From: Bryobacterales bacterium
GTDB taxonomy: Bacteria > Acidobacteriota > Terriglobia > Bryobacterales > Bryobacteraceae
Reading direction: 5' to 3'
Length of the DNA stretch: 48,780 bases
NCBI GenBank assembly: GCA_020851655.1
Contig: JADZCI010000040.1
Coordinates: forward strand, 1-48,780
The stretch's first letter is position 1. Every line of letters starts with the position of its first letter. Of this stretch, positions 2,888 through 48,745 are shown piece after piece. Made by a program: the position numbers and the translations under genes. The notes below the pieces were generated by a model. That model saw nothing but the letters and a program-made list of their open reading frames with translations. It ran no database searches and was not told the DNA's origin.

Positions 2888-2909
2888 ACCTACATTGTGG
2901 CGCAGCGGC

Positions 2910-5900: not shown

Positions 5901-6212
5901 CGCTTGCTCATCTGATCCCGAAATGAACACCGCATTCAGCAAATCCTGAACGGCGCCGAGACGGTGCACTTTCCGCTCAGCCAGGCGCGCCGACAGATCG
6001 GACTGCGCCAACTCGATTTGCCGCCTCTGCGCGGCGGCCTGAACGCCGGCCATTTCGACACGGTTCGAAAAGCGTTCCGCAACCGGCGAGTCTTTCAAAA
6101 TGATGGCCCATCGCGGCGCCCGTCCCATGACATCCGGCTGGATGGTCCGCTGGGTCTGTCCCAGCAGTAACAACGATGCGGAGAAGATGAAACCAAACGC
6201 GTTCGCTTTCAC
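2910..6212 (-). CDS. Secreted subtilisin-like serine protease (S8) with PA and Solibacter-type C-terminal domain
   Basis: Secreted protease of 1100 residues. A signal peptide covers residues 1-20 and a propeptide-like region about 30-125. The S8 triad is Asp158 (GVIDTGID), His225 (GHGTAVA) and Ser578 (GTSFSVP), with oxyanion Asn339 (AAAGNDG). A PA-like insert covers about 415-510. A beta-sandwich region and an Ig-like region (about 650-860) follow. Residues 875-1100 match the Solibacter uncharacterised C-terminal domain, shown by NGASF, PGSWVTIFGQ, ARISYVSDGQVNIQLP and YANGLGP. That domain is typical of secreted proteins of Solibacter relatives and may help surface retention (inference). The start is a GTG at 6212 that gives a good signal peptide; no strong Shine-Dalgarno is seen. 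The neighbouring subtilase is a paralogue. Confidence 0.93.
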   Translation of the reverse strand: MKANAFGFIFSASLLLLGQTQRTIQPDVMGRAPRWAIILKDSPVAERFSNRVEMAGVQAAAQRRQIELAQSDLSARLAERKVHRLGAVQDLLNAVFISGSDEQAAEIRTWPGVEGVVRLQAYKRTLNRALDLVNGTKAWQFVGGDGNAGLGRRIGVIDTGIDQTHPAFQDSSLPAVPGGPFCSGPACDYTNRKVIAARSYVDMLAYEFADDTRPDDNSPRDRVGHGTAVAMIAAGVKNTTPVGAATGVAPKAYLGNYKVFGSPGVNDVTFSDVLITALNDAFNDGMDAVTLSLGFRALWGAADQGSTCDNSGTVPCDPWTAAIRNAVSKGMVVVAAAGNDGDSGVTIPAYNSIATPGTEASAITAGATTNSHIILQTLIVTGDDAPANLKQVDARFGDGPLPSGPLTRPARDVTAVNDNGQACGAMATGSLSGAFAVVQAGGCSLRTKVGNSQSAGADGVIYIRATGSDSVFAPSGLAFTGIPLVVVGNTNGAALRSFLQNNPNRPVTIDPALREVNDPQKYADYTAVFTSYGPNIRTSAIKPDLVAPGTDMVVGTQNYDPNSDMWSASRYTVIDGTSFSVPMVAGAAALVKQRNPAWTPAQIKSALVNTATNAIDDFDNTGKVIPAGVQAIGGGKLQADLAVQANVTVEPATISFGAVTAGGNLPSAGLTFRNGSNQTAGLRLTVVPRQTDSRARVTLSTSSFSLQPGAASTPVTVRLEGATPNPGVYEGYVQADGAAVSLRIPYLYLVTDGVPANVVPLRNENFEGLTLGSMYFAFKVVDKYGLPVPGRNVTWRVVSGGADPSQIQALRATDELGIADATVVLGPSSGAQVFEATIAGFSEPVSFVGTARVRSTLRSPGGIVNGASFETARAVAPGSWVTIFGQALSTATLRFDQLGTPFIPLSLGNVSVGVDVPGGVRQSYPARISYVSDGQVNIQLPYELQGLTSAQLKVSIGNYSSAVMSFNIADYSPAPFQYRDSSGVNMVVATQANSANVIGSSLPAKRGEYITIYANGLGPVTNQPATGEAAKIDPLSYCKGNAEVTFGGRPGAVSFCGLAPTFAGLHQVNVQVPNDAPTGVQDLIMSVNGVSSAPVKMAIQ

Positions 6213-9354: not shown

Positions 9355-10170
9355 ATGCGGTGGCGGCTGGTTGTCGTTCTGGCGCTCGCGCCCGGCGCGC
9401 CGCGCGCGTGTGCGGAAATGCCGACGCTTCTCGACCGAAGCTACGCTCAGATGTACAACCTCGACTTCTCTGGGGCGCACAGGACCCTGGCCGAGTGGAT
9501 GCGGCAAAACCCCGGCGACCCGTTGGGGCCGGTCTCCGATGCCGCCGCTCACTTATTCGAGCAACTCGACCGTTTGAGGATCCTGCAGTCGGAGCTTTTC
9601 ACCAACGACGACGCCTTTCAGTTGGCGCGCCGGCCCAATCCCGACCCCGCCGCGATCCGGACGTTCGAGGATCAGCTTAAGAAAGCCGATGCGCTGGCAA
9701 ATGAGGCCTTGTCCAGAAATCCGCGCGACACCAATGCGCTGTTTGCACAGGTCCTCTCCCACGGCCTGCGGTCCGACATGAAAGGGCTGATCGAGAAAAA
9801 CTACTTGACCTCTCTGTCCCTGGCCAAGGCCGGCCGGGTTAAGGCGGAGCAACTGCTGTCGATTGACCCGTCGTTTCAGGATGCGTGGATCGCGGTCGGC
9901 GTTGAAAATTACATGCTGAGCCTGAAACCACTTCCGTTAAGATGGTTGCTTCAACTCGGTGGCAACCAGACTGATCGGGACGTTGGCGTGGCGCGGCTCC
10001 GCATGACAGCCGAGCGGGGCCGATACCTCAAGCCGTTTGCCAGGCTACTGCTTGCCGTGGCCGCCTTGCGCGACCGCGACAAGAACACTGCGCGCACCAT
10101 CCTCAGCGACCTGAAAGCGCAGTTTCCGGGCAACCGGCTCTACGCCGAAGAACTTGCGAGAATTCAATAA
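9355..10170 (+). CDS. Secreted TPR-like solenoid protein
   Basis: Protein of 271 residues from the ATG at 9355; an in-frame TTG 21 nt earlier is possible but would spoil the signal peptide. A signal peptide (about 1-20, cleavage near RACAEM) is followed by an all-helical region with TPR-like periodicity, for example around YNLDFSGAHRTLAEW and ALSRNPRDTNALFAQ. I do not recognise a specific family. It stops 4 nt before the type III polyketide synthase gene and is therefore the first gene of that unit. A scaffold or envelope role linked to the product is inference. Confidence 0.7.
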   Translation: MRWRLVVVLALAPGAPRACAEMPTLLDRSYAQMYNLDFSGAHRTLAEWMRQNPGDPLGPVSDAAAHLFEQLDRLRILQSELFTNDDAFQLARRPNPDPAAIRTFEDQLKKADALANEALSRNPRDTNALFAQVLSHGLRSDMKGLIEKNYLTSLSLAKAGRVKAEQLLSIDPSFQDAWIAVGVENYMLSLKPLPLRWLLQLGGNQTDRDVGVARLRMTAERGRYLKPFARLLLAVAALRDRDKNTARTILSDLKAQFPGNRLYAEELARIQ

Positions 10171-10174
10171 CGTC

Positions 10175-11224
10175 ATGCGAATCGCCAGCGCATCCGGTGC
10201 GCTTCCCGATCATCAATACGACCAGCGCGCGCTGCTGGCCGCTCTACGCGACCATTGGGGTCCCAAGCTCGACAACCCGCTTTTCCTGGACCGCCTGCAT
10301 GCGCGGGTGGGCGTCGATACGCGCTACCTGGCGCTTCCGATGGCGGACTACTACGGGATCGAGACCTGGGGGCAGGCCAACAACCACTGGATTGAGGCAG
10401 CCGTCGATCTCGGAGAAAGGGCGCTCAACAGCGCGCTGGAGCAGGCGGGGATCGCCAAGGAGCGCCTTGGCGCGATCTTCTTCGTCTCCGTTACCGGAAT
10501 CTGTAGTCCATCGATCGACGCCCGCCTTGTCAACCGGATGAACTTGCCGGCGCGGATCAAGAGGGTTCCGATTTTCGGACTCGGCTGCGTGGCGGGCGCC
10601 GCGGGCATCGCTCGGGCCGCCGATTATGTCCGCGCCTATCCCGACGAAGCCGCCGCGCTGGTCAGCGTCGAGTTGTGTTCTCTCACCCTCCAGCGTGAGG
10701 ACCTCTCCATCGCCAACCTGATCTCATCGGGGCTGTTCGGCGATGGCGCGGCCGCGGCGCTGGTTGCCGGGCAGAATGTCGAGTGCGACGGACCGCGCAT
10801 CCTCGCCACGCGCTCGGTCTTCTATCCGGGTACGGAAGACGTGATGGGGTGGGACATTTCCGAGAAAGGCTTCCGCATCGTTCTGTCACGCGAGGTTCCC
10901 GTCGTTGTCGAAAAGAACCTGGCGGGCGATGTCGATGCGTTTCTCCGGGACCACGGGTTGACCCGCGGCGGGATTGGATCCTGGATTCTGCACACCGGCG
11001 GTCCGCGCGTGCTGGAAGCCACCTCGGCGGCGTTGGGTCTCAAGAATGGAGACCTGGACGCATCGTGGCACTGCCTGCGGCGGACGGGCAATCTGTCGTC
11101 GGCTTCGGTGCTTTTTGTGCTGGAGGAAGTGATGCGGCGGAGACGGCCCGCGCCCGGCGTTTACAGCGTCATGGCCGCCATGGGTCCCGGATTTTGTTCG
11201 GAACTGCTCTTGTTGAAGTGGTAA
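10175..11224 (+). CDS. Type III polyketide synthase (chalcone/stilbene synthase family)
   Basis: Homodimeric enzyme that extends an acyl starter with malonyl-CoA units and cyclises the product to a pyrone, resorcinol or similar ring. 349 residues from the ATG at 10175. The triad is visible: Cys138 (GLGCVAGAAG), His273 (WILHTGGP) and Asn306 (TGNLSSAS). PSIDARL, GDGAAAA and GGPRVLEA are further family motifs. Fatty-acid KAS III enzymes share the fold, but the Cys context and GGPRV motif fit the plant-like type III group. It is followed by genes for an ACP and a KAS II, which suggests the starter may be an acyl-ACP made locally rather than a free acyl-CoA (inference). Bacterial relatives make alkylresorcinols and alkylpyrones. 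Confidence 0.87.
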   Translation: MRIASASGALPDHQYDQRALLAALRDHWGPKLDNPLFLDRLHARVGVDTRYLALPMADYYGIETWGQANNHWIEAAVDLGERALNSALEQAGIAKERLGAIFFVSVTGICSPSIDARLVNRMNLPARIKRVPIFGLGCVAGAAGIARAADYVRAYPDEAAALVSVELCSLTLQREDLSIANLISSGLFGDGAAAALVAGQNVECDGPRILATRSVFYPGTEDVMGWDISEKGFRIVLSREVPVVVEKNLAGDVDAFLRDHGLTRGGIGSWILHTGGPRVLEATSAALGLKNGDLDASWHCLRRTGNLSSASVLFVLEEVMRRRRPAPGVYSVMAAMGPGFCSELLLLKW

Positions 11225-11236
11225 GGAGCGAGCTAC

Positions 11237-11512
11237 ATGGAATCGACGAGCGAGACGGACCTGCTTTCCCGGGTCATTCGCGTGGTGGCGAAATCGCAGC
11301 ACATGGACGCCTCCGCGATCAAGCCGGAGAGCACTTTTGCCGAACTGGGCATCGACTCTCTGGACGGCTTGCAGATCCTCTTCGCCCTCGAGGAGGAGTT
11401 TGGCGTCAGCATCCCCGATGATGCCGGCAAGGAATTCAACTCCATTGCCCGGGTGAGCGGCGGCATTCAGATGTTGCTGAAAGCGAAGAGCGAACCGGCG
11501 CCGGCTTCATGA
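11237..11512 (+). CDS. Acyl carrier protein
   Basis: 91-residue carrier protein. Ser41 in ELGIDSLDGLQ is the 4'-phosphopantetheine site, and the four-helix layout (LEEEFGVSIPDD after the Ser) is standard. AAGGAG at 11222-11227 gives a strong ribosome binding site. Its 3' end overlaps the next start (ATGA). It is probably a dedicated ACP for the adjacent KAS II and type III PKS rather than the housekeeping AcpP, because no fab genes flank it. Confidence 0.92.
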   Translation: MESTSETDLLSRVIRVVAKSQHMDASAIKPESTFAELGIDSLDGLQILFALEEEFGVSIPDDAGKEFNSIARVSGGIQMLLKAKSEPAPAS

Positions 11513-12699
11513 GAAGGGTCGCGGTCACCGGCCTGGGGGTGATTTCGCCGATTGGCCTCAACAGTCAGGAGTTCTGGCAATCGCTGCTGCGCGGCAGATC
11601 GGGAATCGGCCCCATCGAGTCGGTGAACTGCGACGGCCTGAGGTTTGCCAATGCGGCTGAAGTCCGCGGCTTTGATCCGCTGCTCTGGCTCGACGCCAAG
11701 CAGGCTTCGCAGATGGATCGCAGCGCGCAGATGGCCGTCGCCGCCGCCGTCCAAGCCGTGGAGTCTTCCGCCATCGCCTTCGACCCGCTGCGCAGCGCGG
11801 TGGTGACCGGATGCTCCGTGGGTGGGCAGCCCACTGAAGACAGCGTGTACCGGCAGTTGTATGAGGAGAAGAAGACGCGCTTCGATCCGCTGACGATTCC
11901 ACGCATCATGGGGAACGCCGCGGCGAGTTGGATTTCGATGCGCTTCGGAATTCAAGGGCCTTGTTTCAACGTGTCGACGGCGTGCGCCTCAGCCGCGCAC
12001 GCCATGGGCCACGCGTTTTGGATGATCCGGAGCGGGTCGGTGGATACCGCCCTGACCGGCGGCACGGAAGCGCCCATCACGTTCAGCATGCTGCGCGGCT
12101 GGGAAGCGATGCGTGTGGTGGCCCCGGATACATGCCGGCCGTTTTCCCGGGACCGGCGCGGCATGATCCTGGCGGAAGGCGCGGCGTTCTTCGTGCTCGA
12201 AGACATGGGGGCGGCGCGTGCGCGCGGCGCCAACATCATCGCCGAAATTTGCGGGTTCGGCATGTCGGCCGATGCCAGCCACCTGACGCTGCCCTCCTCA
12301 TCGGGCGCAGCCCTCGCCATGCGGCAGGCGCTGGAGGATGCGCGCATGCCCGCCGCCGACGTCGGCTACATCAACGCGCACGGGACCGGCACTCCCGCCA
12401 ACGATCCTGCCGAGGTTCGTTCGATCCGCTCCGTGTTTGCGGCGCCACCGCCCATCAGTTCGACCAAATCCATGCACGGGCATGCCCTCGGCGCGGGGCC
12501 CGCACTCGAAGCTCTGGCCACCGTGCTCGCGCTCCAACACGGTGTGCTCCCCCCAACGGCGAATTTCAACGAACCAGACCCGGATTGCGATGTCGATGTG
12601 ATTCCCAACGCGGTACGCGAGCAGAAGGCGCGCGCGGCGCTGTCCAACTCTTTCGCATTCGGCGGGCTGAATGCGGTGCTGGCGTTCCGCGCGTTCTGA
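11509..12699 (+). CDS. Beta-ketoacyl-ACP synthase II (FabF-like)
   Basis: Condenses malonyl-ACP with an acyl-ACP. 396 residues, thiolase fold. Catalytic Cys159 (STACASA), His291 (NAHGTGTPAND) and His325 (KSMHGHALGAG) are all present, so this is not a chain-length factor. It overlaps the ACP stop by 4 nt. It is slightly shorter than housekeeping FabF (about 410) and sits in a type III PKS unit, so a specialised chain-building role is likely. It could also act in secondary lipid synthesis; its end faces the PQQ dehydrogenase gene. Confidence 0.9.
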   Translation: MRRVAVTGLGVISPIGLNSQEFWQSLLRGRSGIGPIESVNCDGLRFANAAEVRGFDPLLWLDAKQASQMDRSAQMAVAAAVQAVESSAIAFDPLRSAVVTGCSVGGQPTEDSVYRQLYEEKKTRFDPLTIPRIMGNAAASWISMRFGIQGPCFNVSTACASAAHAMGHAFWMIRSGSVDTALTGGTEAPITFSMLRGWEAMRVVAPDTCRPFSRDRRGMILAEGAAFFVLEDMGAARARGANIIAEICGFGMSADASHLTLPSSSGAALAMRQALEDARMPAADVGYINAHGTGTPANDPAEVRSIRSVFAAPPPISSTKSMHGHALGAGPALEALATVLALQHGVLPPTANFNEPDPDCDVDVIPNAVREQKARAALSNSFAFGGLNAVLAFRAF

Positions 12700-26761: not shown

Positions 26762-28045
26762 ATGGCCGGCTTTCGGGAGCTACTTGGCGCGAACTCTCAC
26801 TACCGCCGGCTGTGGCTGGCGCAAATCGTCAGCGAAGTTGGCGATCACTTCAACACCATCGCGGTAGTCACCCTCACTCTCCACATCACCGACTCCGGAC
26901 TGGCTGTCGGCGGCGTGATGCTGTCCCGCGTGCTGCCGGCCATGGTCGCCGGACCCATCGCCGGGGTGATCCTGGACCGGTTCGACCGCAAGCGGGTGAT
27001 GGTGGCCAGCGACCTGGTGCGCGCCCTCGTCGCGGCGGGCTTCGTCCTGGCTGAAAGGTACAATAGCCCGCCCCTGCTGTACATACTCAGCGCGCTGTTG
27101 ATGTTCGCTTCCCCGTTTTTCACCGCCGGCAGAATGGCCATCCTGCCACGCATCACGACCCCCGGCGAACTTCACACCGCCAACGCGCTGACTCAAACCA
27201 CGGCATGGCTCACCCTGACGATCGGGACCATGCTCGGCGGCGTGAGCACCATGAAGTTCGGCTATGGGTGGGCGTTCCTCGCCAACGCGATCTCTTTCCT
27301 GGTGAGCGCCATGTTCATCCAGGGGGTCCGTTCGCCGGAAGGACACTTTCGCGCCCTCGGCAAGACACAGCAACATGGCGGCTGGGCGGATTTTGCCGCC
27401 AGCGTCCGCTACATCACCGCAACGCCTCTGGTCCTGGCGATTGGCCTCACGGGAGTGGGATGGGCAAGCGGCGGCGGGGCGGCGCAGGTGCTTTTCACCA
27501 TGTACGGTGAGCGCGTCTTCAACGCGGGTGCGGCCGGCGTGGGCTTTATCTGGGGATTCGCCGGGGTCGGACTGGTGCTGGGCGGCCTGCTGGGTCATCA
27601 AGCCGGTCCGCGATTGCGCTACAAGCAGTACAAGCGTTTCATCGGGTGGGCCTTTCTCATTCACGGCCTGAGTTACGTGGCGTTCAGCCAGGCGCCGGTT
27701 ATCGGCTGGGCGATGGTAGCCATCGCTCTGTCGCGCGCCTGCGTGGGCATGATCAATGTAATTAACCGGACGATTCTGCTGACACATGTGCCCGACGCCT
27801 TCCGGGGACGCGTATTCGCCAATTTCGAGATGCTGACCAACACCGCCATGATGGCGTCGCTCATGGGCGCCGGGGCGGCTTCCAAGTCGTTCGGCCTGCG
27901 GCAGATTGGGTTCGTGGCGGGCTGCCTGAGCGCCTCGACGGCCGTATTCTGGCTCTGGGCCAACTGGACCGGCCGCCTTCCCGAACCCCGCCGGACTTTG
28001 CCCGAAACCGAGGAAGAGCCTACTTCGACAGTCCAGCCTGCCTGA
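26762..28045 (+). CDS. MFS transporter (EntS/MFS_3-type exporter)
   Basis: Twelve-helix major facilitator protein of 427 residues. LPAMVAGPIAGVILDRFDRKRVMVASDLVRA (about residues 60-90) is the loop 2-3 motif of the EntS-like exporter group. It probably exports a small molecule or drug. Its 3' end overlaps the convergent glycosyltransferase-thioesterase gene by 26 bp. It could export the product of that unit (inference), but it is on the other strand and may be unrelated. Confidence 0.88.
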   Translation: MAGFRELLGANSHYRRLWLAQIVSEVGDHFNTIAVVTLTLHITDSGLAVGGVMLSRVLPAMVAGPIAGVILDRFDRKRVMVASDLVRALVAAGFVLAERYNSPPLLYILSALLMFASPFFTAGRMAILPRITTPGELHTANALTQTTAWLTLTIGTMLGGVSTMKFGYGWAFLANAISFLVSAMFIQGVRSPEGHFRALGKTQQHGGWADFAASVRYITATPLVLAIGLTGVGWASGGGAAQVLFTMYGERVFNAGAAGVGFIWGFAGVGLVLGGLLGHQAGPRLRYKQYKRFIGWAFLIHGLSYVAFSQAPVIGWAMVAIALSRACVGMINVINRTILLTHVPDAFRGRVFANFEMLTNTAMMASLMGAGAASKSFGLRQIGFVAGCLSASTAVFWLWANWTGRLPEPRRTLPETEEEPTSTVQPA

Positions 28046-30002
28046 GCCGCAGGCTGAGTTCCCGCAAAAACTCGTCGCGCGCCGTATCGATAAAGAAATG
28101 CCCACCCGCAAAGATCCGCGCCTCAAACCCTCCGGTTGTATGTTCTCTCCATGCCTCGACATGGCCGGGCGCAACATTCGGGTCGGACACGCCTCCGTAG
28201 GCGAATATCCTCACTGGCAGAGGCGCGTCTTCGGCGTAGACATAGTTGCGATAGAGGCGCGCATCGGCGCGGAGCGCGGGCAGGGCAAGCCGCAACAGTT
28301 CGGGATTGTCCAGGACCTTCAAGGAAAGCCCTTCGAGGCGCCGCAATTCGTCCAGAAACTCCTGCTCGCTGGGCTCCGGCGGAGGAGTCCAATTGCGGCG
28401 GAAGTGCGGTGCGCGCGCCCCAGCGGCGAAGAGCGCCACAGGCATCGGAAGGCCGCGCCGCCGCAGTTCCCGCGCCGTTTCATAAGCCACGACGGCGCCC
28501 ATGCTGTGGCCAAAGAATGCGAAGGGCTCCCGCACCAGCGGTTCGATCGCGGCGGTAATGGAGGAGACAAGCGAGGCCATGTCCTCGATGGGAGGTTCAC
28601 CCTGCCGCGTCTCGCGCCCCGGCAACAGCAGAGGAACGGTGGATACCGGAAGCGTCCATTGCCGGAACGGACCGGTCCCCGCGCCGGCAAACGGAAAGCA
28701 GACCAGCCGGGGTGGAGCGCCGGTCACAGGCAGCCATGGGTTCGACGCCGCCTGCCGCTGCTTCAGCATCAATGCCAGCAACTTCTTCCGGTCTCCAGCG
28801 GCGGCCGAAATGGCCGGCTTCTTGGGGCGCTTGAGCAGGTCGAACATCAGCGCTTCAAATGGTTCCGCGGTCAAGTGCCGCATGTAGTCAAGCGCGGCGA
28901 GCAGCGACCGGTCCGAGAGTGCGTTCCAGAGTGGCTCGCTGGCGCAGAGTGTGCGTACCGTCTCGACCCACGGTTCCACGTTTTGAGGCGGCACCTGGGC
29001 CACCGGCACCATATGTTCATCCACCGACGGCTGATAGTGCTCGATGGCGTTGACGGGCAACAGGTAGTCCACACCCATCATGGCTTCGTGGATCCCTCCG
29101 ACGTCGCTGGCGACGACCGGGACGCCGCGCGACATCGATTCGACGATCATGCGCGAGCGCGCTTCGTGCCAGACGGAGGGCACCAGCATCACCCGCGTCA
29201 GCGCCAGAAGGTCATCGATGTTGTCGAAGAGTTCCAGGAGCCTGACGTTGGGGCGCCTGAGGAGTTGTGCGCGGTCGGTCGTCGTCGTGCCCCACATGGG
29301 TACGGCGGCGAACCGCACTTCCGGCAAACGGTCCGCAACTCCCAGAAAGATGTCGATCCCTTTAACGGCGCACGGATTGGCCATGGTGACGTAGGGGTTT
29401 TCGAAGCGTCCCACACGGTTGGGCGTTCCCGGCTCCAGGAGGGAAATTGGAACGTGGACCGCGTCCAGACCTCCGTGCGTGCGGCAGTAGTTCGCCACGT
29501 ACTGGCTCACGCCGACGGCCGCGTCCGCCTGCCGGAGTTTGGCTGTCCGCTCCGCGCTGACCGAAGAACTCTCAGGACCGAAGGGGACGGCGATCGTGGC
29601 GCGCACCAGGTACATAACACGCGCCTGGCTCTTGACCGCGAGATCAAACAGCAACTGCGCGGGATCGTCGGTCGAGGTGATGATGACTTCCGGCTGAAAA
29701 GCATCGAGTTGGGCGGAGAAGAACGCCCGCCAGTGCGTGTCCAGCGTCAGCGTGCGAACATCGACGCCGTTCCGGCTGAACCGCACCGCCCCCGGTTCGA
29801 TGACTTCATGCCGGACCGAGCGTGCCGCCAGGTCCCGCAAGAATTGCGCATGGCCGGACTCGCCGAACCTCTCGACGCGCGCCACCACGCGGACATCATG
29901 ACCCCGCGCCGCGAGCGCTTCCATCAGCAGGCGGTTGGACTTGTCACCCCCGCCCGACGAGGGGTAGTAGGTGGAGTTGTGCGCCAGCAGGACACGGCTC
30001 AC
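28020..30002 (-). CDS. Glycosyltransferase fused to a type II thioesterase
   Basis: 660 residues from the GTG at 30002, which overlaps the upstream gene stop by 4 nt (GTGA). Residues 1-400 are a family 4 glycosyltransferase (AHNSTYYPSSGGGDKSN, VTMANPCAVKGIDIF, SRGVPVVASDVGGIHEAM) and a paralogue of the preceding gene. A linker (about 405-440, with KKLLALMLKQRQ) resembles NRPS linkers. Residues 440-655 are a type II thioesterase: CFPFAGAGTGPF, Ser500 in GHSMGAV, and AGGHFFID with the catalytic His. Such thioesterases release acyl groups from carrier proteins; the carrier is most likely the ACP of the first gene in this operon. I do not know this fusion from any described pathway. Confidence 0.85.
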   Translation of the reverse strand: MSRVLLAHNSTYYPSSGGGDKSNRLLMEALAARGHDVRVVARVERFGESGHAQFLRDLAARSVRHEVIEPGAVRFSRNGVDVRTLTLDTHWRAFFSAQLDAFQPEVIITSTDDPAQLLFDLAVKSQARVMYLVRATIAVPFGPESSSVSAERTAKLRQADAAVGVSQYVANYCRTHGGLDAVHVPISLLEPGTPNRVGRFENPYVTMANPCAVKGIDIFLGVADRLPEVRFAAVPMWGTTTTDRAQLLRRPNVRLLELFDNIDDLLALTRVMLVPSVWHEARSRMIVESMSRGVPVVASDVGGIHEAMMGVDYLLPVNAIEHYQPSVDEHMVPVAQVPPQNVEPWVETVRTLCASEPLWNALSDRSLLAALDYMRHLTAEPFEALMFDLLKRPKKPAISAAAGDRKKLLALMLKQRQAASNPWLPVTGAPPRLVCFPFAGAGTGPFRQWTLPVSTVPLLLPGRETRQGEPPIEDMASLVSSITAAIEPLVREPFAFFGHSMGAVVAYETARELRRRGLPMPVALFAAGARAPHFRRNWTPPPEPSEQEFLDELRRLEGLSLKVLDNPELLRLALPALRADARLYRNYVYAEDAPLPVRIFAYGGVSDPNVAPGHVEAWREHTTGGFEARIFAGGHFFIDTARDEFLRELSLRLRQAGLSK

Positions 30003-31195
30003 ACGCGGCCCGCCTTGCTCTTGGCCCGGGCCAGCAGCAGCGCCCGCTGCGCCGGCGTCAGGCGTTCCCACCTCGAGGATGGCGCGGGCGCCTCCGCGGA
30101 GGGCGAAAGGCCGAGCAGAAATTCCTCGAACTGTTCGACGCGCAGTCTCGATACAAATCCCAACGCCGCCGCACGGCTGCGGTGGGATTCCTCGTTGTAC
30201 GCCTCCCGGTCCTCAGTCAGCCGCCGCACCGCGTCCGCCCACGGTTGAATATCCTGCTCCGCCAGGACCGGCACGGGCATGTGTGTCTCGTCGAATTCCG
30301 GCCGGTATCCGCGAATCGGGCGCACCGGGATGACATATCCGGTTCCGGCCTTGGCTTCGATGAGCCCGCCGGAATCGCTCGCCACAACGGGCAGGCCGCG
30401 CAACATGGCCTCCATGGCGATCAGTCCGAAGCCCTCGTACCAGAGTGACGGCATCAGCAGCATGCGAGCCTTACTGAGCGCCTCATCAATTCCCGCTACA
30501 GTCTTCCACAGCGCCACGTTGTGGATCGCGGCCAAACTGCTGCGATCAGCGGCGGTCGTTCCCCATCCATCCAGCGCGGCAAAGGGCAGGCGTGGAAACG
30601 CCTGCGCCAGGGAACGGAAAATGCTGATGCCCTTCACGGCGCAAGGATTGACCATGAGCAGGGCGCCGCGGTCGAAGCACGAGAAATCCGGATACGGCGG
30701 CTGCCCGTACATGGGAGGGTGGATGACCGTGGCCCGGCATCCCGCATGCTCCTCGATATAGGAAGCCGTGTGAGTTCCGATTGCCACCACGCCCGCGGCC
30801 CGCCGGATCATCGAGGTTGCCTGCTCGTCGCGATACCAACTTGCCGGACCGAACGGAAACCACTGCGGAGTGTGCGCCAGGTAAACCAACCGGCTGGGAG
30901 CCGAGTGCGCGGCCTGGCGGAGCAGCGTGTGGCTGAGATCCTCGCTCGAGACCAGCACCCAATCGGGCCCGAAGGTCTCGATCTCGTGGGCCAGGACATC
31001 GGTATGGCGGGGGAGATCGGCGACACTCAAAACCTCGATGCCGCCCGGGACGGTCCGGCCACTCAAGCTCGAACCGCACACCACCCGGCAGATGTGACCC
31101 TGCGAGGCCAGGTGCCGCAGCCAGATCAGATTACTCCGGGTCGAACCGCCCTTGGGCGGATCATACGACGCGTTGGCCGCTAGCAGAATCCGCAT
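29999..31195 (-). CDS. Family 4 glycosyltransferase with NRPS-like tail
   Basis: 398-residue GT4 enzyme with GT-B fold. The N-terminal motif ANASYDPPKGGSTRSN matches the paralogue downstream. LLMVNPCAVKGISIF, GWGTTAADRSSL and EGFGLIAMEAMLRGLPVVASDSGG form the donor site (E-x7-E). The last 25 residues, RLTPAQRALLLARAKSKAG, look like the helical linker found in NRPS proteins. The gene starts 2 nt after the FkbH-ACP stop and ends in a 4-nt overlap, so the three proteins are made together. Donor sugar unknown. Confidence 0.85.
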   Translation of the reverse strand: MRILLAANASYDPPKGGSTRSNLIWLRHLASQGHICRVVCGSSLSGRTVPGGIEVLSVADLPRHTDVLAHEIETFGPDWVLVSSEDLSHTLLRQAAHSAPSRLVYLAHTPQWFPFGPASWYRDEQATSMIRRAAGVVAIGTHTASYIEEHAGCRATVIHPPMYGQPPYPDFSCFDRGALLMVNPCAVKGISIFRSLAQAFPRLPFAALDGWGTTAADRSSLAAIHNVALWKTVAGIDEALSKARMLLMPSLWYEGFGLIAMEAMLRGLPVVASDSGGLIEAKAGTGYVIPVRPIRGYRPEFDETHMPVPVLAEQDIQPWADAVRRLTEDREAYNEESHRSRAAALGFVSRLRVEQFEEFLLGLSPSAEAPAPSSRWERLTPAQRALLLARAKSKAGRV

Positions 31196-31197
31196 GT

Positions 31198-33282
31198 CTA
31201 GTCTCCAGGGGGAGAACTGCGTTCCTGTTCGGCGAGCAATGCCTGGACCTCTTCATCGCTTAACTGCTCGATCTCGGCAAGCAAGCTGGCGTACTTCTCC
31301 GGATCGGACGCCTCCATCTGCCGGGCCTCGATGAGAGCGGCGATCGAGGACAGCGTCGCCGTACCGGAGTACACGTCGTCGATCCCCAGTTCGACACCAA
31401 ACTGCTCCTTGATCCGCAACAGCAGGAGAACCGCCTGAAGCGAGTGTCCGCCCAGGTCGAAAAAGTTGTCCGCGGCGTGAATCGCCGGCTTATCCAGAAG
31501 TTCACGCCAGACCGCGGCCAGTTGCTGCTCGGTGTTGCCGCCGGCGTGCGTGTCGCCGCCGGACCTTTCCCGGACACGGTCCAGGACGGCGCCGGCGGTC
31601 GACAGTTCGAGCGCAATGCGGGCGTAATCGATGGAGCGGCGGCGCTCCTGCCTGGCGGGCTTGGGTGACTTGGACGCGGGCGCGGCGCTGGCCGTGATGC
31701 GGGCTTGTTTCAATTCCGCCGGAGAGAACCGGTAGCCGCTTGCCGGCGCCGCGGAGCCTCGAAGCGATTCCAGAAACAGCCGGGCCGGCGCATTCTTCGA
31801 GGTTGGCTCGAAGCCGATGCGAATTGTGGCCAGACCGGCGCTCTCGGCTACCGCCGCGGCATGGCGCACCATCTGGTGTTCAACGCCCCTGCCCAGGGCG
31901 CGGCAACTGAGCAGCAGCGTCTCCACGGCAAGTTCATCCCGGCCGGCAACCAGAATCAACACTCCAACCTGCCCGTAGTCGCCGAACCGGTCCGCCGCAT
32001 CCACCGTCCAAATCGACGTACCCGGCTGCGCCGCAAGCACGCGAAGTTCCGCTTCCGTTCGCCGCACCGTCGAGCAGTTGAACTGATTGGTGCGCTGCGT
32101 CAATTGCGCGGTTCGCGACAGCCGCGCCTCCGCCAGCGGGGAAATGGCCACTTTGAGTTGGAGGGTTTCAAGAAAATGCGTCAGGCTCTCCGCGCTCTTC
32201 AAGGCTTTCCCGAACTCCTGGCTCTGTTGATAGAGGGTGCTGCGCTGCCGGTCCTCTTCGGTCACGACCGGATGATCGAAAGCCCAGATGTGGTTGAGAA
32301 ACCCCGGTATCGCGTCCGGGCCGGCCGGCAGGTTCAAGGTCAAGACCTCGGGCAGCGTTTCCTCGACTTCGGCGCACTCCCGCGCGTTGTCGTCCAGAAA
32401 AATGAAGCTGGCGGCGCCCAGGTTCAATTCCTGAGCGATGCTTGCCAGGTTGCCCGCCTTGTCTTCCCAGTTGATGCGCGTGGTCACGAAATGGCGCAGG
32501 CCCATGGGAAACTGCGGATTCCGTTGAAACGTTTCCAGGACCTCGGCCTCGTTGTTCTTGCTGACGATGGCAAGCAGCATGCCATCCTCTCGCTGGTCGA
32601 GCATGAAACGCTGCAAGTACTCGCGGCCGCGGTCGAGAACCACGCCATTGGGTCCGTCCTCGCCGCAGATGCCCTGCCAGAGCGTGTTGTCGCAATCGAG
32701 GGCGATGAGCTTGAACGGCGGGGCGGTCAACGCGTGGGCGTGACGGAACAACGCGGTTCCTAATGCGGCAAAGAAACGGTCTGTGTAAGGTATGCCGCCG
32801 AGTTTTTCGCCAAGCGGGTCGCGGAAGTTCTCGACCGGATATAACCGGACAATGTCGCGCCAGCCCAGGAAACCGACGCCCGGCGTTTCGCCGAGACTCG
32901 CTGCCAGCAGGAGATGCTCGTCATCCGGAGAAGGGTGGGAGGGCGGACAGAGGACGACCAGCAAGGGCGCCGCAAGTTGAGCCGCCGAAGAACGCACCAC
33001 GGCCGCCAATTGCGTGGTGTTTTCCTTTAAGCGCTCCGCCCCGTGCAGGGCGCCCAGATCCTCAAAGCGCACCAGGAGTACATTCAGCCCATCTTGATTT
33101 CGCGCAAACACGCTCGATGGATCAAGCAGAGTCTGCAGCGGCTGGTTGAACGGCGCAAACTCGATCTCCAGCGCGGTGTTCAACTCCTCCCCCCAGAAAC
33201 GCAGAAAGGGCGTCAGTGGTTCAGCGTTGAACGTGGCGCTGACGGCAAATCGGTACGGTCTCGCTGTGGCTGGCGATTCCAT
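31198..33282 (-). CDS. FkbH-like HAD protein with C-terminal carrier domain
   Basis: 694 residues. Residues 1-165 form the N-terminal FkbH-type domain. Residues 170-330 are a HAD domain (IALDCDNTLWQGICGEDG, and FLDDNARECAEV). Residues 340-505 form the GNAT-like end of FkbH proteins. Residues 590-665 are a carrier domain with Ser614 in DLGGHSLQAV. A helical tail follows (LSDEEVQALLAEQ). Known FkbH-like enzymes take 1,3-bisphosphoglycerate to glyceryl-S-ACP. Carrier and enzyme are fused here, and no PKS module is present. An extended -10 (33350-33358) and AGGAG 12 nt from the ATG support the start. Confidence 0.88.
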   Translation of the reverse strand: MESPATARPYRFAVSATFNAEPLTPFLRFWGEELNTALEIEFAPFNQPLQTLLDPSSVFARNQDGLNVLLVRFEDLGALHGAERLKENTTQLAAVVRSSAAQLAAPLLVVLCPPSHPSPDDEHLLLAASLGETPGVGFLGWRDIVRLYPVENFRDPLGEKLGGIPYTDRFFAALGTALFRHAHALTAPPFKLIALDCDNTLWQGICGEDGPNGVVLDRGREYLQRFMLDQREDGMLLAIVSKNNEAEVLETFQRNPQFPMGLRHFVTTRINWEDKAGNLASIAQELNLGAASFIFLDDNARECAEVEETLPEVLTLNLPAGPDAIPGFLNHIWAFDHPVVTEEDRQRSTLYQQSQEFGKALKSAESLTHFLETLQLKVAISPLAEARLSRTAQLTQRTNQFNCSTVRRTEAELRVLAAQPGTSIWTVDAADRFGDYGQVGVLILVAGRDELAVETLLLSCRALGRGVEHQMVRHAAAVAESAGLATIRIGFEPTSKNAPARLFLESLRGSAAPASGYRFSPAELKQARITASAAPASKSPKPARQERRRSIDYARIALELSTAGAVLDRVRERSGGDTHAGGNTEQQLAAVWRELLDKPAIHAADNFFDLGGHSLQAVLLLLRIKEQFGVELGIDDVYSGTATLSSIAALIEARQMEASDPEKYASLLAEIEQLSDEEVQALLAEQERSSPPGD

Positions 33283-42660: not shown

Positions 42661-44616
42661 CTACCCGTAGAGGAACGCCGGGAACCGCTCGCGCACCGCG
42701 GCCACCTTCTTGCCCACCGCATAGATTCCGTCGCCACGCCACTCGGCGGGAAGTTGGTAGCGCTCCAGCAGGTGTTCAATCCAAATGTGATGCGGACGCG
42801 GGTCGTCCCGAAACTCACCGGTTTCCAGGTTCATCATCTCAAAGCCCGCGTAATAGAACAGTTGCCAGATCTCCTTGGGTGTGTACTCGCGGTTGTGGCG
42901 CGCATCGTTGGTTTCGCCGGGCTTCAGGTACGCGGGAAAGAATCCCGGATGATAACCCTGCAAGATGGCGTGGAGCGCGCGCATCGAAGCGATATTGGGC
43001 GTGGTCAGCACCAGGGTTCCGCCGGGGCGCAGGACGCGATTGATCTCCGCCATCATGTGCATCGGATCGGAGAACAGATGCTCGATGAGTTCTCCGCAGA
43101 TAACGGCCGCAAAATAGCCGTCCGCATAGGGGTAGATGTCCTTCTCGGCATCGAAATGATCGATGTCGCAGGCGAACTCCTCGCCGCCTTGTGAGGCCGC
43201 CTGACGGTGATCGATTCGCCCCAGCGGACCGTAGTAGCAACCGTGTACGTGACCGTAGCCGAGCTTTGTCTTGAGGGCCGGCGTGATCTGGAGGTAGGAC
43301 CCCATTTCGAGGATATGGTCATCCGGTCCCCCGGGCGGCGTTAGCTCGAGGGTGCGGACCAACCTATCCTTGTGAATATCTACATAGTTGCGAGCCTCGT
43401 CATCGGCAGCCCAACCGATGATGTACTCAGCAGTGATCTCCGGCGGCGGGGCAGCGGCTTCGGGCGTTTCCGGCAAGGCGAGCGATGGTTCCTGATGTCT
43501 TCCAGCGTGGACTGCTTCGGCGAATTGAACGTAACGTTCCGCCACCTTGGGCCAACTGCATTCGCGCCGCACCCACGCCCGCGCTTCCTCGCCCAGGACC
43601 CGCGCAAGCCTGGGCCGGGTCACTAAGAGGTTGAGGTATTCAAACAGCGTGTCCTCTTCGGCGGCTCCAACCGGAACTTTGAGGCACACGCTATCCGGCA
43701 GCTCAGCAAATGAACCCACGCCGGAAACGACGCACGCCCGTCCCAGTCCGAGCGCCCGGAGCAGGCTGCCGCTACTTTCGCCAACCGTCGGGAAGCGGAG
43801 ATTGAGGACAATGTCACACGCCGCCATGTAGCCGGTGAAATCCTCTTCCGTGGTGAACCCAAGCAAGCGCACAAATGGGCCGAGGTTGAGGCCGCGAATC
43901 ATCTCCTTCAGCGGAAAATCGGGGTGCGTTTCACCCACCAGGATCATGCGCGCCCGGGGTTCGAAGCGCAGCAGGCGGCGAAAGGCCCGCAGGCTTTCGG
44001 CAATTCGCTTGTAGGGCTTCAGAAAGCCGAAGACGCCGATGAGCGGGGTCGTCTCGTTCAGTCCGAGCCGGTAACGCCAGGGCATGGCCGGAGTGTCGGG
44101 AATCCAGGCGCCGTGAGGGATCACCGACACAGGACCCAGGTACCGCCCCGCCCGCACCGCGCCGGCGCAAAACCGGCTGTGCACGATGACGCCGCGCGAG
44201 CGCTCCAACAACCGGCGAAGCATCGGCACACCGTCGTAATCAGGTCCAACTTCCAAGCGCTGGACCCTCTTGGCGAATTCGAGCGCGGCGGGGCCACCGT
44301 CGTACTCACACTCGGCCAGGTACAGGTCCCAGCGATTTCTGCGAATCGTGAGGTCGGTGATCAGGTGGTGCAGATTGGCTTCGTGCAGCACCACGAGGCC
44401 GGGATGCTCCAACGCCATTTCAAAGGCGCCCGCGTGGAAACCGTTGTTTCCAATCTGGTAGATGATCTCGTCGTAGGCGGAGGCGCGAAACCCTGGAGGT
44501 TGTTGCTCGAACACGTCGACCGCCGCCAGGTCGCGGAGCGGCGCAACCAATGCGGCCGAATAATCGGCGATGCCGCTCTTGGCGGGTGGCATTGGCGAGA
44601 CAAAGGCGATGCGCAT
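42661..44616 (-). CDS. Glycosyltransferase fused to an SAM-dependent methyltransferase
   Basis: 651 residues. Residues 1-385 are a GT4 glycosyltransferase (RIAFVSPMPPAKSGIADYS, PHGAWIPDTPAMP, GVFGFLKPYKRI, VGESSGSLLRALGLGRACVVS). Residues 400-650 are a class I methyltransferase (DHILEMGSYLQIT as the SAM loop, ICGELIEHLFSDP, LRPGGTLVLTTPN). Placed directly before the Wzm permease, it may add and methylate the terminal sugar, as methyl caps control chain length in ABC-exported O-antigens (inference). The gaps to both neighbours are 6 nt. Confidence 0.87.
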   Translation of the reverse strand: MRIAFVSPMPPAKSGIADYSAALVAPLRDLAAVDVFEQQPPGFRASAYDEIIYQIGNNGFHAGAFEMALEHPGLVVLHEANLHHLITDLTIRRNRWDLYLAECEYDGGPAALEFAKRVQRLEVGPDYDGVPMLRRLLERSRGVIVHSRFCAGAVRAGRYLGPVSVIPHGAWIPDTPAMPWRYRLGLNETTPLIGVFGFLKPYKRIAESLRAFRRLLRFEPRARMILVGETHPDFPLKEMIRGLNLGPFVRLLGFTTEEDFTGYMAACDIVLNLRFPTVGESSGSLLRALGLGRACVVSGVGSFAELPDSVCLKVPVGAAEEDTLFEYLNLLVTRPRLARVLGEEARAWVRRECSWPKVAERYVQFAEAVHAGRHQEPSLALPETPEAAAPPPEITAEYIIGWAADDEARNYVDIHKDRLVRTLELTPPGGPDDHILEMGSYLQITPALKTKLGYGHVHGCYYGPLGRIDHRQAASQGGEEFACDIDHFDAEKDIYPYADGYFAAVICGELIEHLFSDPMHMMAEINRVLRPGGTLVLTTPNIASMRALHAILQGYHPGFFPAYLKPGETNDARHNREYTPKEIWQLFYYAGFEMMNLETGEFRDDPRPHHIWIEHLLERYQLPAEWRGDGIYAVGKKVAAVRERFPAFLYG

Positions 44617-46523: not shown

Positions 46524-47699
46524 CTAGAACCCGGCCCGGGCCAAGGTCTCCCACGCCGCGGGCCAGGAGTAGGAGGACTCAAACCGGCTCCTTCCAGCCT
46601 CGGCGATGCGGTTGGCGACTTCCGGCGACTCGAGCAGGCGTGAGACCGCCGCCGCGAAGCCTTCAGGTGAATCTTCAATGAGTAAGTCTGTACCCGCCGT
46701 GGCCGTCAAACCTTCGGCGCCAATCGACGTGGCGACGACTGGCGCCTTGGCCGCCCATGCCTCGACAATCTTCAGCCGCGTGCCGGACCCCGCCAGCAGA
46801 GGTGCGATCGCCACTCGCGCGCGGGCGATCCAAGGGAGCGCCTCGGGCACTCCGCCCGTGCACTGAACCCCTTCGGCAATCGCGAGCAGCGGCCGGATAA
46901 GTTCCGGATTCCGCCCGATCAGCAGTAACTCGAGATTGGGATGCCGCCGGCGTAAGCCGGGCCACACCCTGCCAAGAAACCAGCGCAAGCCGGATTGATT
47001 CGGCGGATAGGCCCAATTCGCGGAAAACGCGATGATGTCTTGCTTGTCAACAACCGGAGGCGGCGCGGCCGGCAACGAGTTTGGATAAACGGTCACCGGA
47101 ACGCCGGAGGTCCGCACCTGCGCGGCATCGGAATCGGAAGTCACCCACAAGCCATCGAACCTGGGCAGCAGTTCGCGCTCCGCTTCTTCGGCAATCGAGG
47201 CAAAGCGGCGCAGCGCCAAAGAGGCGCCGCGCGATTGCGCCGCCGTACGGCTCAACAAGACGGATTCGACGTTGTGCAGATCCAGGACGACGTGACGGGC
47301 ATGACGGCGGATGGCGGACTCGTAAGGCGCCAGCCAAAAGTGCTCCAACACCGCCAAATCATATTCCTGGCCATCGAGCCAGGCCGAGAGTTCGGACTGC
47401 CGCCCGTGGAAGCGGTCGCACAACGGAACTACGCCGCGAAACAGCCGGTTCAGGTTGCGCAACGCCCTGGCGGGAGCGCTCCGCGAGTGCCGGGGCAAGG
47501 TCAAGACCGTGGTCCGGCAAGAAAGGCCGTTGGGAATGTGGCTCGCCGGGCACTCGGCGCCTTCCTCCTGGAACAGCGCCAGATCGACCTGAAAATTCCG
47601 GTTCAAGTAATTGAGGATTGAGGCCGTCCGCATGGCTCCGCCGCCGTGCATCGGGTACGGCGCCTCGGGACAGAGTAGGAGCGCTCTCCTGAGACCCAT
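46524..47699 (-). CDS. Family 4-like glycosyltransferase
   Basis: 391 residues from the ATG at 47699, which shares its A with the TGA of the gene before. LLLCPEAPYPMHGGGAMRTASIL (about 6-28) opens the GT-B fold; FSANWAYPPNQSGLRWFL, LLIGRNPELIR and LLAGSGTRLKIVEAWAAKAPVVATSIGAEGL cover the donor side. A member of the GT4/GT1_4 group of hexosyl transferases in surface-glycan operons. Donor and acceptor unknown. Confidence 0.88.
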   Translation of the reverse strand: MGLRRALLLCPEAPYPMHGGGAMRTASILNYLNRNFQVDLALFQEEGAECPASHIPNGLSCRTTVLTLPRHSRSAPARALRNLNRLFRGVVPLCDRFHGRQSELSAWLDGQEYDLAVLEHFWLAPYESAIRRHARHVVLDLHNVESVLLSRTAAQSRGASLALRRFASIAEEAERELLPRFDGLWVTSDSDAAQVRTSGVPVTVYPNSLPAAPPPVVDKQDIIAFSANWAYPPNQSGLRWFLGRVWPGLRRRHPNLELLLIGRNPELIRPLLAIAEGVQCTGGVPEALPWIARARVAIAPLLAGSGTRLKIVEAWAAKAPVVATSIGAEGLTATAGTDLLIEDSPEGFAAAVSRLLESPEVANRIAEAGRSRFESSYSWPAAWETLARAGF

Positions 47700-48745
47700 C
47701 ACCGCTCGCCCAGCGCCTGCTGGTAGACAGAGTAGGTCTTGCGCGCCGTGGCCGGCCAACTGAATTGTCGCGCCCGAGCCAGGGATTGTTCGCTCAACCG
47801 GGCGCGAAGACCGGCGTTGCCCAGTAGCGCACGGAGGGCTTCACTCCAATCGCCATCGACCCGCAGGGCCGCCCCGCCACTCACTTCGCCGAGCGCCGCG
47901 GCCGCCGACACGGCCACCGGCGCGCCGCACTGCATTGCCTCCAGGACCGGCAACCCGAAGCCTTCGTACACGGATGGCATCAGAACGGCGAGCGCGCCGG
48001 AGTAGAGCCGCACTAACTCATCATCACTCACCGCGCCGAGGAACTCGAGCCCGTCAGCCGGCGCAAACACAGGACTATCGGACCTCGACCGGCCCACGAT
48101 CTTGAGCCCCACCGCGTGGTCGTGGCGCAGGCTTCGCCACGCATCCACCACAATGCCGAGATTCTTGCGCGGTTCAATAGTGCCGACGGCCAGCAGGAAC
48201 GGCGTTCCCTGGGATTCAGGCGGAAGGGGCCGGAACACAGACGCCGCGGCGAGCGGGACTGCGACGACACGGTCTTCAGCAAGCCCGAAGTACGAAATCA
48301 CCTCCTTGCGAACCGCCTCGCTAGGAGTGATGACCGCTTTGGCAAACCCAAGACGCAGTAGCCAGGGTGTTCGCCGGACAATGCGGCTGCTGCGATTCCA
48401 GGCGCCGGGCATCCAGGGCGAAAGATCATGCAGCGTCATAACACTCGGAGGGCTCCAACGATAGGGGACAGCGAAATCGGTCCCGTGGAACAGGTTCAGA
48501 CCCAAACCGCGGATCGCCTTGGGCAATCCCGTGGACCACCACCGTCGAGTCACTCGCGAAATCGCGGCCTCCAGGCAATGGAGATTGGCAGGGGCCGCTG
48601 AGGGATGCTGGAACGGCCGGTCGGAGAGCAGGAAAAAGTTGTCACACGGGTACTCGCGCGCCAGCGCCAGGCTCAATTCACACGTGTACCTGGCAATTCC
48701 ACCGGTGGCTTCCGTCAGCGGCGTGGCGTCGAGTCCAACGTTCAT
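47699..48745 (-). CDS. Family 4 glycosyltransferase
   Basis: 348 residues. GLDATPLTEATGGIARYTCEL opens the fold, LFHGTDFAVPY and VMTLHDLSPW follow, and AVGTIEPRKNLGIVVDAW and PSVYEGFGLPVLEAMQCGAPVAVS make the donor site. It resembles mannosyltransferases of O-antigen operons and the GT at 45315-46463. The start overlaps the upstream gene by 4 nt (ATGA), so it is translationally coupled. Confidence 0.9.
   Translation of the reverse strand: MNVGLDATPLTEATGGIARYTCELSLALAREYPCDNFFLLSDRPFQHPSAAPANLHCLEAAISRVTRRWWSTGLPKAIRGLGLNLFHGTDFAVPYRWSPPSVMTLHDLSPWMPGAWNRSSRIVRRTPWLLRLGFAKAVITPSEAVRKEVISYFGLAEDRVVAVPLAAASVFRPLPPESQGTPFLLAVGTIEPRKNLGIVVDAWRSLRHDHAVGLKIVGRSRSDSPVFAPADGLEFLGAVSDDELVRLYSGALAVLMPSVYEGFGLPVLEAMQCGAPVAVSAAAALGEVSGGAALRVDGDWSEALRALLGNAGLRARLSEQSLARARQFSWPATARKTYSVYQQALGER

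Follow-up and report, generated by a model that had tools for sequence, protein, structure and literature searches.

A candidate condensation-free carrier-protein assembly line with two glycosyltransferases and a fused thioesterase in Bryobacteraceae

Introduction

FkbH domains of nonribosomal peptide synthetase (NRPS) modules load 1,3-bisphosphoglycerate and dephosphorylate it to a glyceryl unit (PMC8949500, a review). In vioprolide biosynthesis, a fatty acid recruited by a fatty acyl-AMP ligase (FAAL) is joined to this glyceryl by an ester-forming condensation (C) domain (PMC8949500), and the FAAL-ACP-C-HAD-T start of vioprolide and corramycin, in which ACP is an acyl carrier protein and T a thiolation domain, incorporates glycerate as an ester (PMC8949500, PMC10099666). 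The vioprolide FkbH was shown to activate 3-phosphoglycerate (PMC10099666). Here we describe a three-gene operon, the triad, of a Bryobacterales bacterium (family Bryobacteraceae; assembly GCA_020851655.1). It encodes an FkbH protein with its own carrier domain (FkbH-ACP), a GT4 glycosyltransferase (GT1) and a second GT4 glycosyltransferase fused to a type II thioesterase (GT2-TE). The operon lies in a stretch of 48,780 nucleotides (the window), which is one entire contig, JADZCI010000040.1, of a 5.73 Mb draft genome that is 97% complete.

The glyceryl-ACP enzymes of tetronate and methoxymalonyl pathways (for example Mad7/Mad8, PMC7489565) have the FkbH family and a carrier protein in common with the triad, whereas in the triad the carrier is fused to FkbH, the partners are glycosyltransferases and a thioesterase, and no FabH-like enzyme, dehydrogenases or polyketide synthase (PKS) adjoin. 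Our best explanation, which we hold at about even chances, is that the triad is a condensation-free carrier-protein assembly line whose probable product is a diglycosyl-glycerate, or an acyl-glycerate glycolipid in the forms that carry FAAL.

Results

The triad is a conserved unit of Bryobacteraceae

The three genes are closely coupled. Read directly, genes 1 and 2 are separated by 2 nt (31198/31195) and genes 2 and 3 share a GTGA (GTG 30002-30000, TGA 30001-29999), so that the layout and coordinates given in an earlier, sequence-only reading of this DNA are all exact; the automatic open reading frame (ORF) start of gene 3, 30071, is 23 codons too early, and the start in relatives corresponds to 30002. 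Domain profiles also agree with its description of an FkbH protein with its own carrier (Ser614), a GT4 enzyme and a GT4-thioesterase fusion (Ser500). Gene 1 belongs to TIGR01686, above the cut-off of 146.65 bits, with the HAD motif DxDxT and a carrier partner, and Pfam places a GT4 domain in both gene 2 and gene 3. Across 22-28 relatives the catalytic residues are invariant in FkbH, the carrier, both glycosyltransferases and the thioesterase: D196, D198, T200, C206 and S614 of gene 1 (22 relatives), E254 and E262 (E-x7-E) of GT1, which has a GT-B fold, and Ser500 and His635 of the thioesterase (28 relatives). The thioesterase has the features of the type II family (PF00975, GxSxG and the His) but is fused to GT2 in nearly all loci, rather than being a separate protein acting in trans.

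We searched 299 genomes of the class, 67 from the same family (Bryobacteraceae) and 232 from outside it, and counted by hand from the result table. GT-TE fusions were found in 30 of the 67 and in 0 of the 232, in which matches covered only the thioesterase or the glycosyltransferase part. A wider scan of 84,980 species left 80 loci. Almost all of them carry the label Acidobacteriota (Bryobacterales and similar), and the remaining few may lie on misbinned or mislabelled contigs. The architecture was constant, with FkbHN-FkbH-ACP, GT1 and GT2-TE in that order and GT1-GT2-TE as a single protein in about 25 distinct loci. Retention of this order across about 80 independent loci is far beyond what chance would be expected to give. 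We also compared up to 20 kb around the triad in 29 relatives and the window (30 loci). FkbH-ACP was a separate gene beside the glycosyltransferases in 27 of these loci and part of a larger protein in two more. Most flanking genes differed between loci and, besides FkbH-ACP and a major facilitator superfamily (MFS) gene (15 of 30 loci), no neighbour gene cluster occurred in more than 6. GT1 and GT2 each form one clade in the tree, so that the pair originated in an early duplication.

Some sequences depart from this picture. Triad-type sequences in L152, L104 and L169 are labelled Phycisphaerales, Arcobacter and Nevskia, and are possibly misbinned or mislabelled acidobacterial contigs. L108 and L134 have the GT2-TE fusion without FkbH-ACP or GT1 on the retrieved DNA. 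A side branch of GT2 without the thioesterase (L163, 290-6254; L166, 502-2602; L171) is perhaps a second use of this glycosyltransferase family; an FkbM methyltransferase adjoins instead of FkbH in L163 and L166, and an MFS gene too in L163.

Condensation domains are missing from most triad genomes

The operon has an assembly-line carrier with a phosphopantetheine Ser but no condensing domain (C or modular ketosynthase) that would act on the carrier-bound unit; such a domain is present only in four loci with a fused FAAL and C domain, described below. Genome-wide family searches found no condensation domain in this genome. Its ketosynthase-family matches are single-domain and lie in open frames no longer than 429 aa, no FAAL was detected elsewhere in it (no match to a FAAL-ACP-C query at E 1e-20), and the FAAL-ACP-C-FkbH-ACP loading-module architecture is absent from the window. 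The sequence-only reading had named PKS or NRPS genes as usual partners of the triad in relatives as the finding that would speak against it. They are not the usual partners: condensation domains are entirely absent from 23 of 31 triad genomes, including this one. Three of the other eight have the fused FAAL-ACP-C forms and the rest have NRPS-type domains on other contigs. Its remark that no PKS or NRPS gene is near thus describes the triad as it normally occurs, but not quite the window, which has a type III PKS-like gene and a lone ketosynthase 15-20 kb away. We saw no link between these two genes (window 10154-12699) and the triad, and they are perhaps a small polyketide locus of their own.

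These results bear on the explanation that the triad has separated from an NRPS or PKS pathway whose other genes lie elsewhere in the genome. The FkbH-ACPs nearest to the triad but outside it belong mostly to NRPS or PKS lines (L183-L188), with that of L182 fused to a thioesterase, and both the FAAL-ACP-C fusions of four loci and the polyketide-type genes of the window would fit such an origin. A hidden partner of this kind was nevertheless rejected on the condensation-domain counts, here and in most triad genomes, and on the short, single-domain ketosynthase matches, and we regard the explanation as very improbable.

FAAL-containing forms and the carrier-bound unit

In L051, L054 and L190, gene 1 is lengthened to FAAL-ACP-C-FkbH-ACP, with GT1 and GT2-TE after it, and a fourth locus, L165, has a partial version. 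The first three have the domain order of the vioprolide and corramycin loading modules (FAAL-ACP-C-FkbH-T), which continue with peptide-forming modules, whereas the triad loci continue with two GT4 enzymes and a thioesterase. This precedent is the best support for a glyceryl unit and, by analogy, the architecture predicts an acyl-glycerate glycolipid in these four loci. The fused C domains read HHIISDL or HHLIGDL, not exactly HHxxxDG, which leaves their activity likely rather than certain. Because FAAL-ACP-C is fused in a few relatives, the condensation-free form of the triad is not universal. The small glycolipid head that had been offered as one possible product fits these four loci, but most triads, this one included, have no FAAL-ACP-C. 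We tried to polarize gain against loss of FAAL-ACP-C, but the trees disagree: a supported split of the FkbH tree places the FAAL forms on the same side as the outgroup, but when GT1 and GT2 root each other, the FAAL forms fall within those without FAAL in GT1 and do not hold together in GT2.

We also considered that FkbH might load lactyl, phospho-lactyl or another C3 acid, the remainder of the route being as in our best explanation. FkbH-like domains load lactyl in bryostatin, and specificity is not readable from sequence. The vioprolide FkbH, which has the same FAAL-ACP-C-FkbH-ACP setting as the four loci, activates 3-phosphoglycerate (PMC10099666), and we consider another unit improbable. 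A large ORF upstream in L096 was examined as a candidate synthase and rejected as an Ig-repeat protein.

Docking-like helices on the carrier and both glycosyltransferases

At its C terminus the carrier protein has an acidic helix (LSDEEVQALLAEQ... in the window) with the consensus IExLSDEEVRALLERE, and 72 of the 75 distinct tails contain the acidic motif (mean net charge -8.5). Separate GT1 proteins have a basic C-terminal helix (RLTPAQRALLLARAKSKAGRV in the window, typically LSPEKRALLLRRLKKR; found in 47 of 56 with a loose pattern, mean charge +4.3), and a helix of the same kind lies in the GT2-TE linker (DRKKLLALMLKQRQ in the window; 73 of 78 distinct linkers, mean net charge +4.7). All 25 GT1-GT2 fusions lack the GT1 helix, and in them one helix could serve both glycosyltransferases. 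In 785,641 aa of unrelated ORFs from triad loci, a stricter basic pattern occurred 6 times and the acidic pattern 0 times, a rough background in that the ORF set includes spurious ones and the patterns were written after the sequences were inspected. In an NRPS locus (L185), a carrier-ending subunit has the acidic motif at its end and another subunit has the basic motif directly before its C domain; L081 has a weaker acidic/basic pair. In an AlphaFold2 (AF2) model of GT2-TE, the linker helix (residues 400-417) is part of a low-confidence linker between two well-predicted domains. Several classes of docking elements have been described, including one carrier tail that recruits more than one partner (PMC9113145, a review). 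We take the helices of the triad to be putative docking elements that bring the glycosyltransferases to the carrier, on which glycosylation would then probably take place.

Predicted structures of GT1 and GT2-TE

The AF2 model of GT1 (predicted local distance difference test score, pLDDT, 92) is most similar in fold to BshA, MshA, PimA and other GT4 enzymes, which share the GT-B fold and E-x7-E with the operon glycosyltransferases at only ~15-18% identity and, unlike them, lack the conserved basic helix and carrier-protein partner. BshA glycosylates malate, a small hydroxy acid. As support for a hydroxy-acid acceptor of GT1 the predicted fold similarity is weak, being generic GT4 likeness.

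The closest folds to the GT2-TE model (pLDDT 90) are RedJ, RifR and BorB, matched through the thioesterase domain (best Protein Data Bank matches 6vap, BorB; 3fla, RifR; 3qmw, RedJ). The domain shares their fold, Ser and His, and GHSMG, with ~32-39% identity in the structural match; unlike these enzymes, it is covalently joined to a GT4 domain by a linker with a basic helix. Because its closest structures are type II, editing-type thioesterases, it might only clear mis-loaded carriers, with the glycosylated unit passed to an unlinked acceptor or enzyme. Two observations argue against a purely editing role, which we think doubtful: the line ends covalently in the thioesterase in almost all loci, and its surroundings hold no conserved further enzyme for release or as acceptor.

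A linked MFS exporter

An MFS exporter gene converges on gene 3 in the window and is its probable partner (Table 1). MFS genes near the triad in the 30 loci vary in orientation, as do those of the window exporter's own cluster, which are near the triad in about a third of loci. Genomes with two MFS copies (at least 48% identity) numbered 10 among the 30 with the triad and 0 among the 37 without it (Fisher p 1.2e-4, from a hand count and optimistic because the genomes are related), and some of the second copies do not adjoin the triad. The linkage is real and suggests product export, but we rejected a strict partnership with the triad, as the subfamily is family-wide.

Relatives outside the family and neighbouring genes

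Plasmids of Streptomyces sp. NBC_00441 and NBC_00209 carry, in one cluster, strong matches to the glycosyltransferase (38%) and to FkbH-ACP (37% over 91%). FkbH-ACP, an ACP, a related GT4 enzyme and a thioesterase lie within 6 kb there (~13 kb with an MFS gene). Unlike the triad, they are separate genes, with one GT4 enzyme of this family plus unrelated glycosyltransferases, a stand-alone condensation protein and sugar-nucleotide genes. We found no described pathway that brings together FkbH, glycosyltransferase, thioesterase and glyceryl in a library of open-licence papers, judged partly by title and abstract. The earlier remark that no such pathway is known to its author stands within that library, but is tempered by this discrete-gene relative, whose cluster includes a condensation protein. 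The relatives outside Bryobacteraceae suggest that FkbH-ACP, GT4 and thioesterase form a set beyond the family, and they also lend something to the acyl-transfer alternative discussed below. The NBC_00441 plasmid region (L198, 62-103 kb) is a probable natural-product cluster, in which FkbH-ACP, ACP, three glycosyltransferases, thioesterase and condensation protein are accompanied by a GH38, an FGE-like enzyme, a MoaD/ThiS-like protein and ScbA/ScbR regulators.

Elsewhere in the window, two neighbouring large subtilases of 764 and 1100 aa with PA domains are encoded at 593-6212 (minus strand). A single chain with glycosyltransferase group 1 and methyltransferase domains is encoded at 42661-44616 (minus strand), and a further GT4 gene lies at 46524-47759.

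Table 1. Coordinates of the triad and other features in the window
Feature	Position	Strand	Details
Gene 1, FkbH-carrier protein	33282-31198	minus	694 aa; TIGR01686 288.5 bits, PF00550 52.5 bits
Gene 1 domains			N-terminal FkbH-associated, residues ~10-188; FkbH/HAD-IIIC, 190-507; peptidyl carrier protein (PCP)-like carrier, 586-651
Phosphopantetheine Ser614 of gene 1 carrier	31443-31441	minus	
Acidic C-terminal helix of carrier protein	31201-31263	minus	Proposed docking tail
Gene 2, GT4 glycosyltransferase (GT1)	31195-29999	minus	398 aa; Pfam GT4
Basic C-terminal helix of GT1	30002-30064	minus	Proposed docking helix
Gene 3, GT4-type II thioesterase fusion (GT2-TE)	30002-28020	minus	660 aa; start GTG 30002
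Basic helix in GT-TE linker of gene 3	28749-28802	minus	Proposed docking helix
Gene 3 thioesterase domain	28023-28727	minus	Type II, RifR/RedJ/BorB-like; PF00975 138 bits
GHSMG Ser500 of gene 3	28505-28503	minus	Numbered from GTG 30002
MFS exporter	26762-28045	plus	EntS/TIGR00900-like; convergent with gene 3, overlapping its end by 26 nt; probable partner
Type III PKS-like gene	10154-11224	plus	15-20 kb from triad
Single-domain FabF-like ketosynthase	11509-12699	plus	15-20 kb from triad

Discussion

We propose, as its family and the vioprolide precedent suggest, that FkbH would charge its own carrier with a C3 hydroxy-acyl unit; D-glyceryl is the most likely one and would derive, with dephosphorylation, from 1,3-bisphosphoglycerate. 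GT1 and then GT2, each docking by its basic helix on the acidic tail of the carrier, would use nucleotide-sugar donors to glycosylate the hydroxyls of this unit while it is held as a thioester. The GT2-fused thioesterase would then hydrolyse the finished glycoside off the carrier, and the product, fatty-acylated where FAAL-ACP-C is fused, would probably be exported by the linked MFS protein. Gene order, domain-fusion order and this proposed reaction order are the same. The sequence-only reading had suggested that sugars are added to a carrier-bound unit that the thioesterase releases. The triad has proved to be a real functional unit whose anatomy, including the docking-like helices, fits this; glyceryl rather than another acyl group, which sugars are added and how many, and release by hydrolysis are parts that we infer. 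That sugars, in place of acyl or aminoacyl groups, are the extension units, with two docking-helix glycosyltransferases extending a carrier-held glyceryl and the fused thioesterase releasing it, we put forward tentatively, at slightly less than even chances.

Several points weigh against this proposal. The sole phosphopantetheinyl transferase found in this genome is AcpS-type, although the carrier is PCP-like, so activation of the carrier is not guaranteed. The acidic/basic helix pair matches no published docking class clearly, and the evidence that these helices bring the glycosyltransferases to the carrier consists of charge and position. The subfamily of the flanking MFS is found throughout the bacterial family, the thioesterase resembles editing enzymes most, and the chain from glyceryl loading through sugar transfer to a thioester-bound acceptor, hydrolysis and export is put together from sequence. 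FkbH-ACP-thioesterase single proteins also occur without the triad glycosyltransferases, one beside an acyltransferase gene in a different family of the class (L182, 9054-12035, minus strand) and one on a plasmid of the planctomycete Aquisphaera in an exopolysaccharide locus with exosortase genes (L197, 11387-14398, plus strand). These two fusions, and the fact that GT4 enzymes commonly build glycans, would suit an alternative in which the glycosyltransferases make a separate glycoside or envelope glycan and the thioesterase moves the carrier-bound glyceryl to a sugar hydroxyl, giving a glycerate ester. We judge acyl transfer of this kind unlikely, though less so than the other alternatives, given the docking-like helices on both glycosyltransferases, the likeness of the thioesterase to hydrolytic type II enzymes and the absence of genes for polysaccharide export or for polymerases from the conserved neighbours of the triad in the 30 loci.

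If on-carrier glycosylation by the triad is correct, docking helices can recruit glycosyltransferases to a carrier protein as the elongating enzymes of an assembly line, and lines of this kind would probably escape genome-mining rules built on condensation or ketosynthase domains. As a self-contained system of three proteins, the triad is suited to a direct test of on-carrier glycosylation. Little is known about the Bryobacteraceae, a soil group in which the triad is widespread, and the product of the triad may thus be common among soil metabolites.

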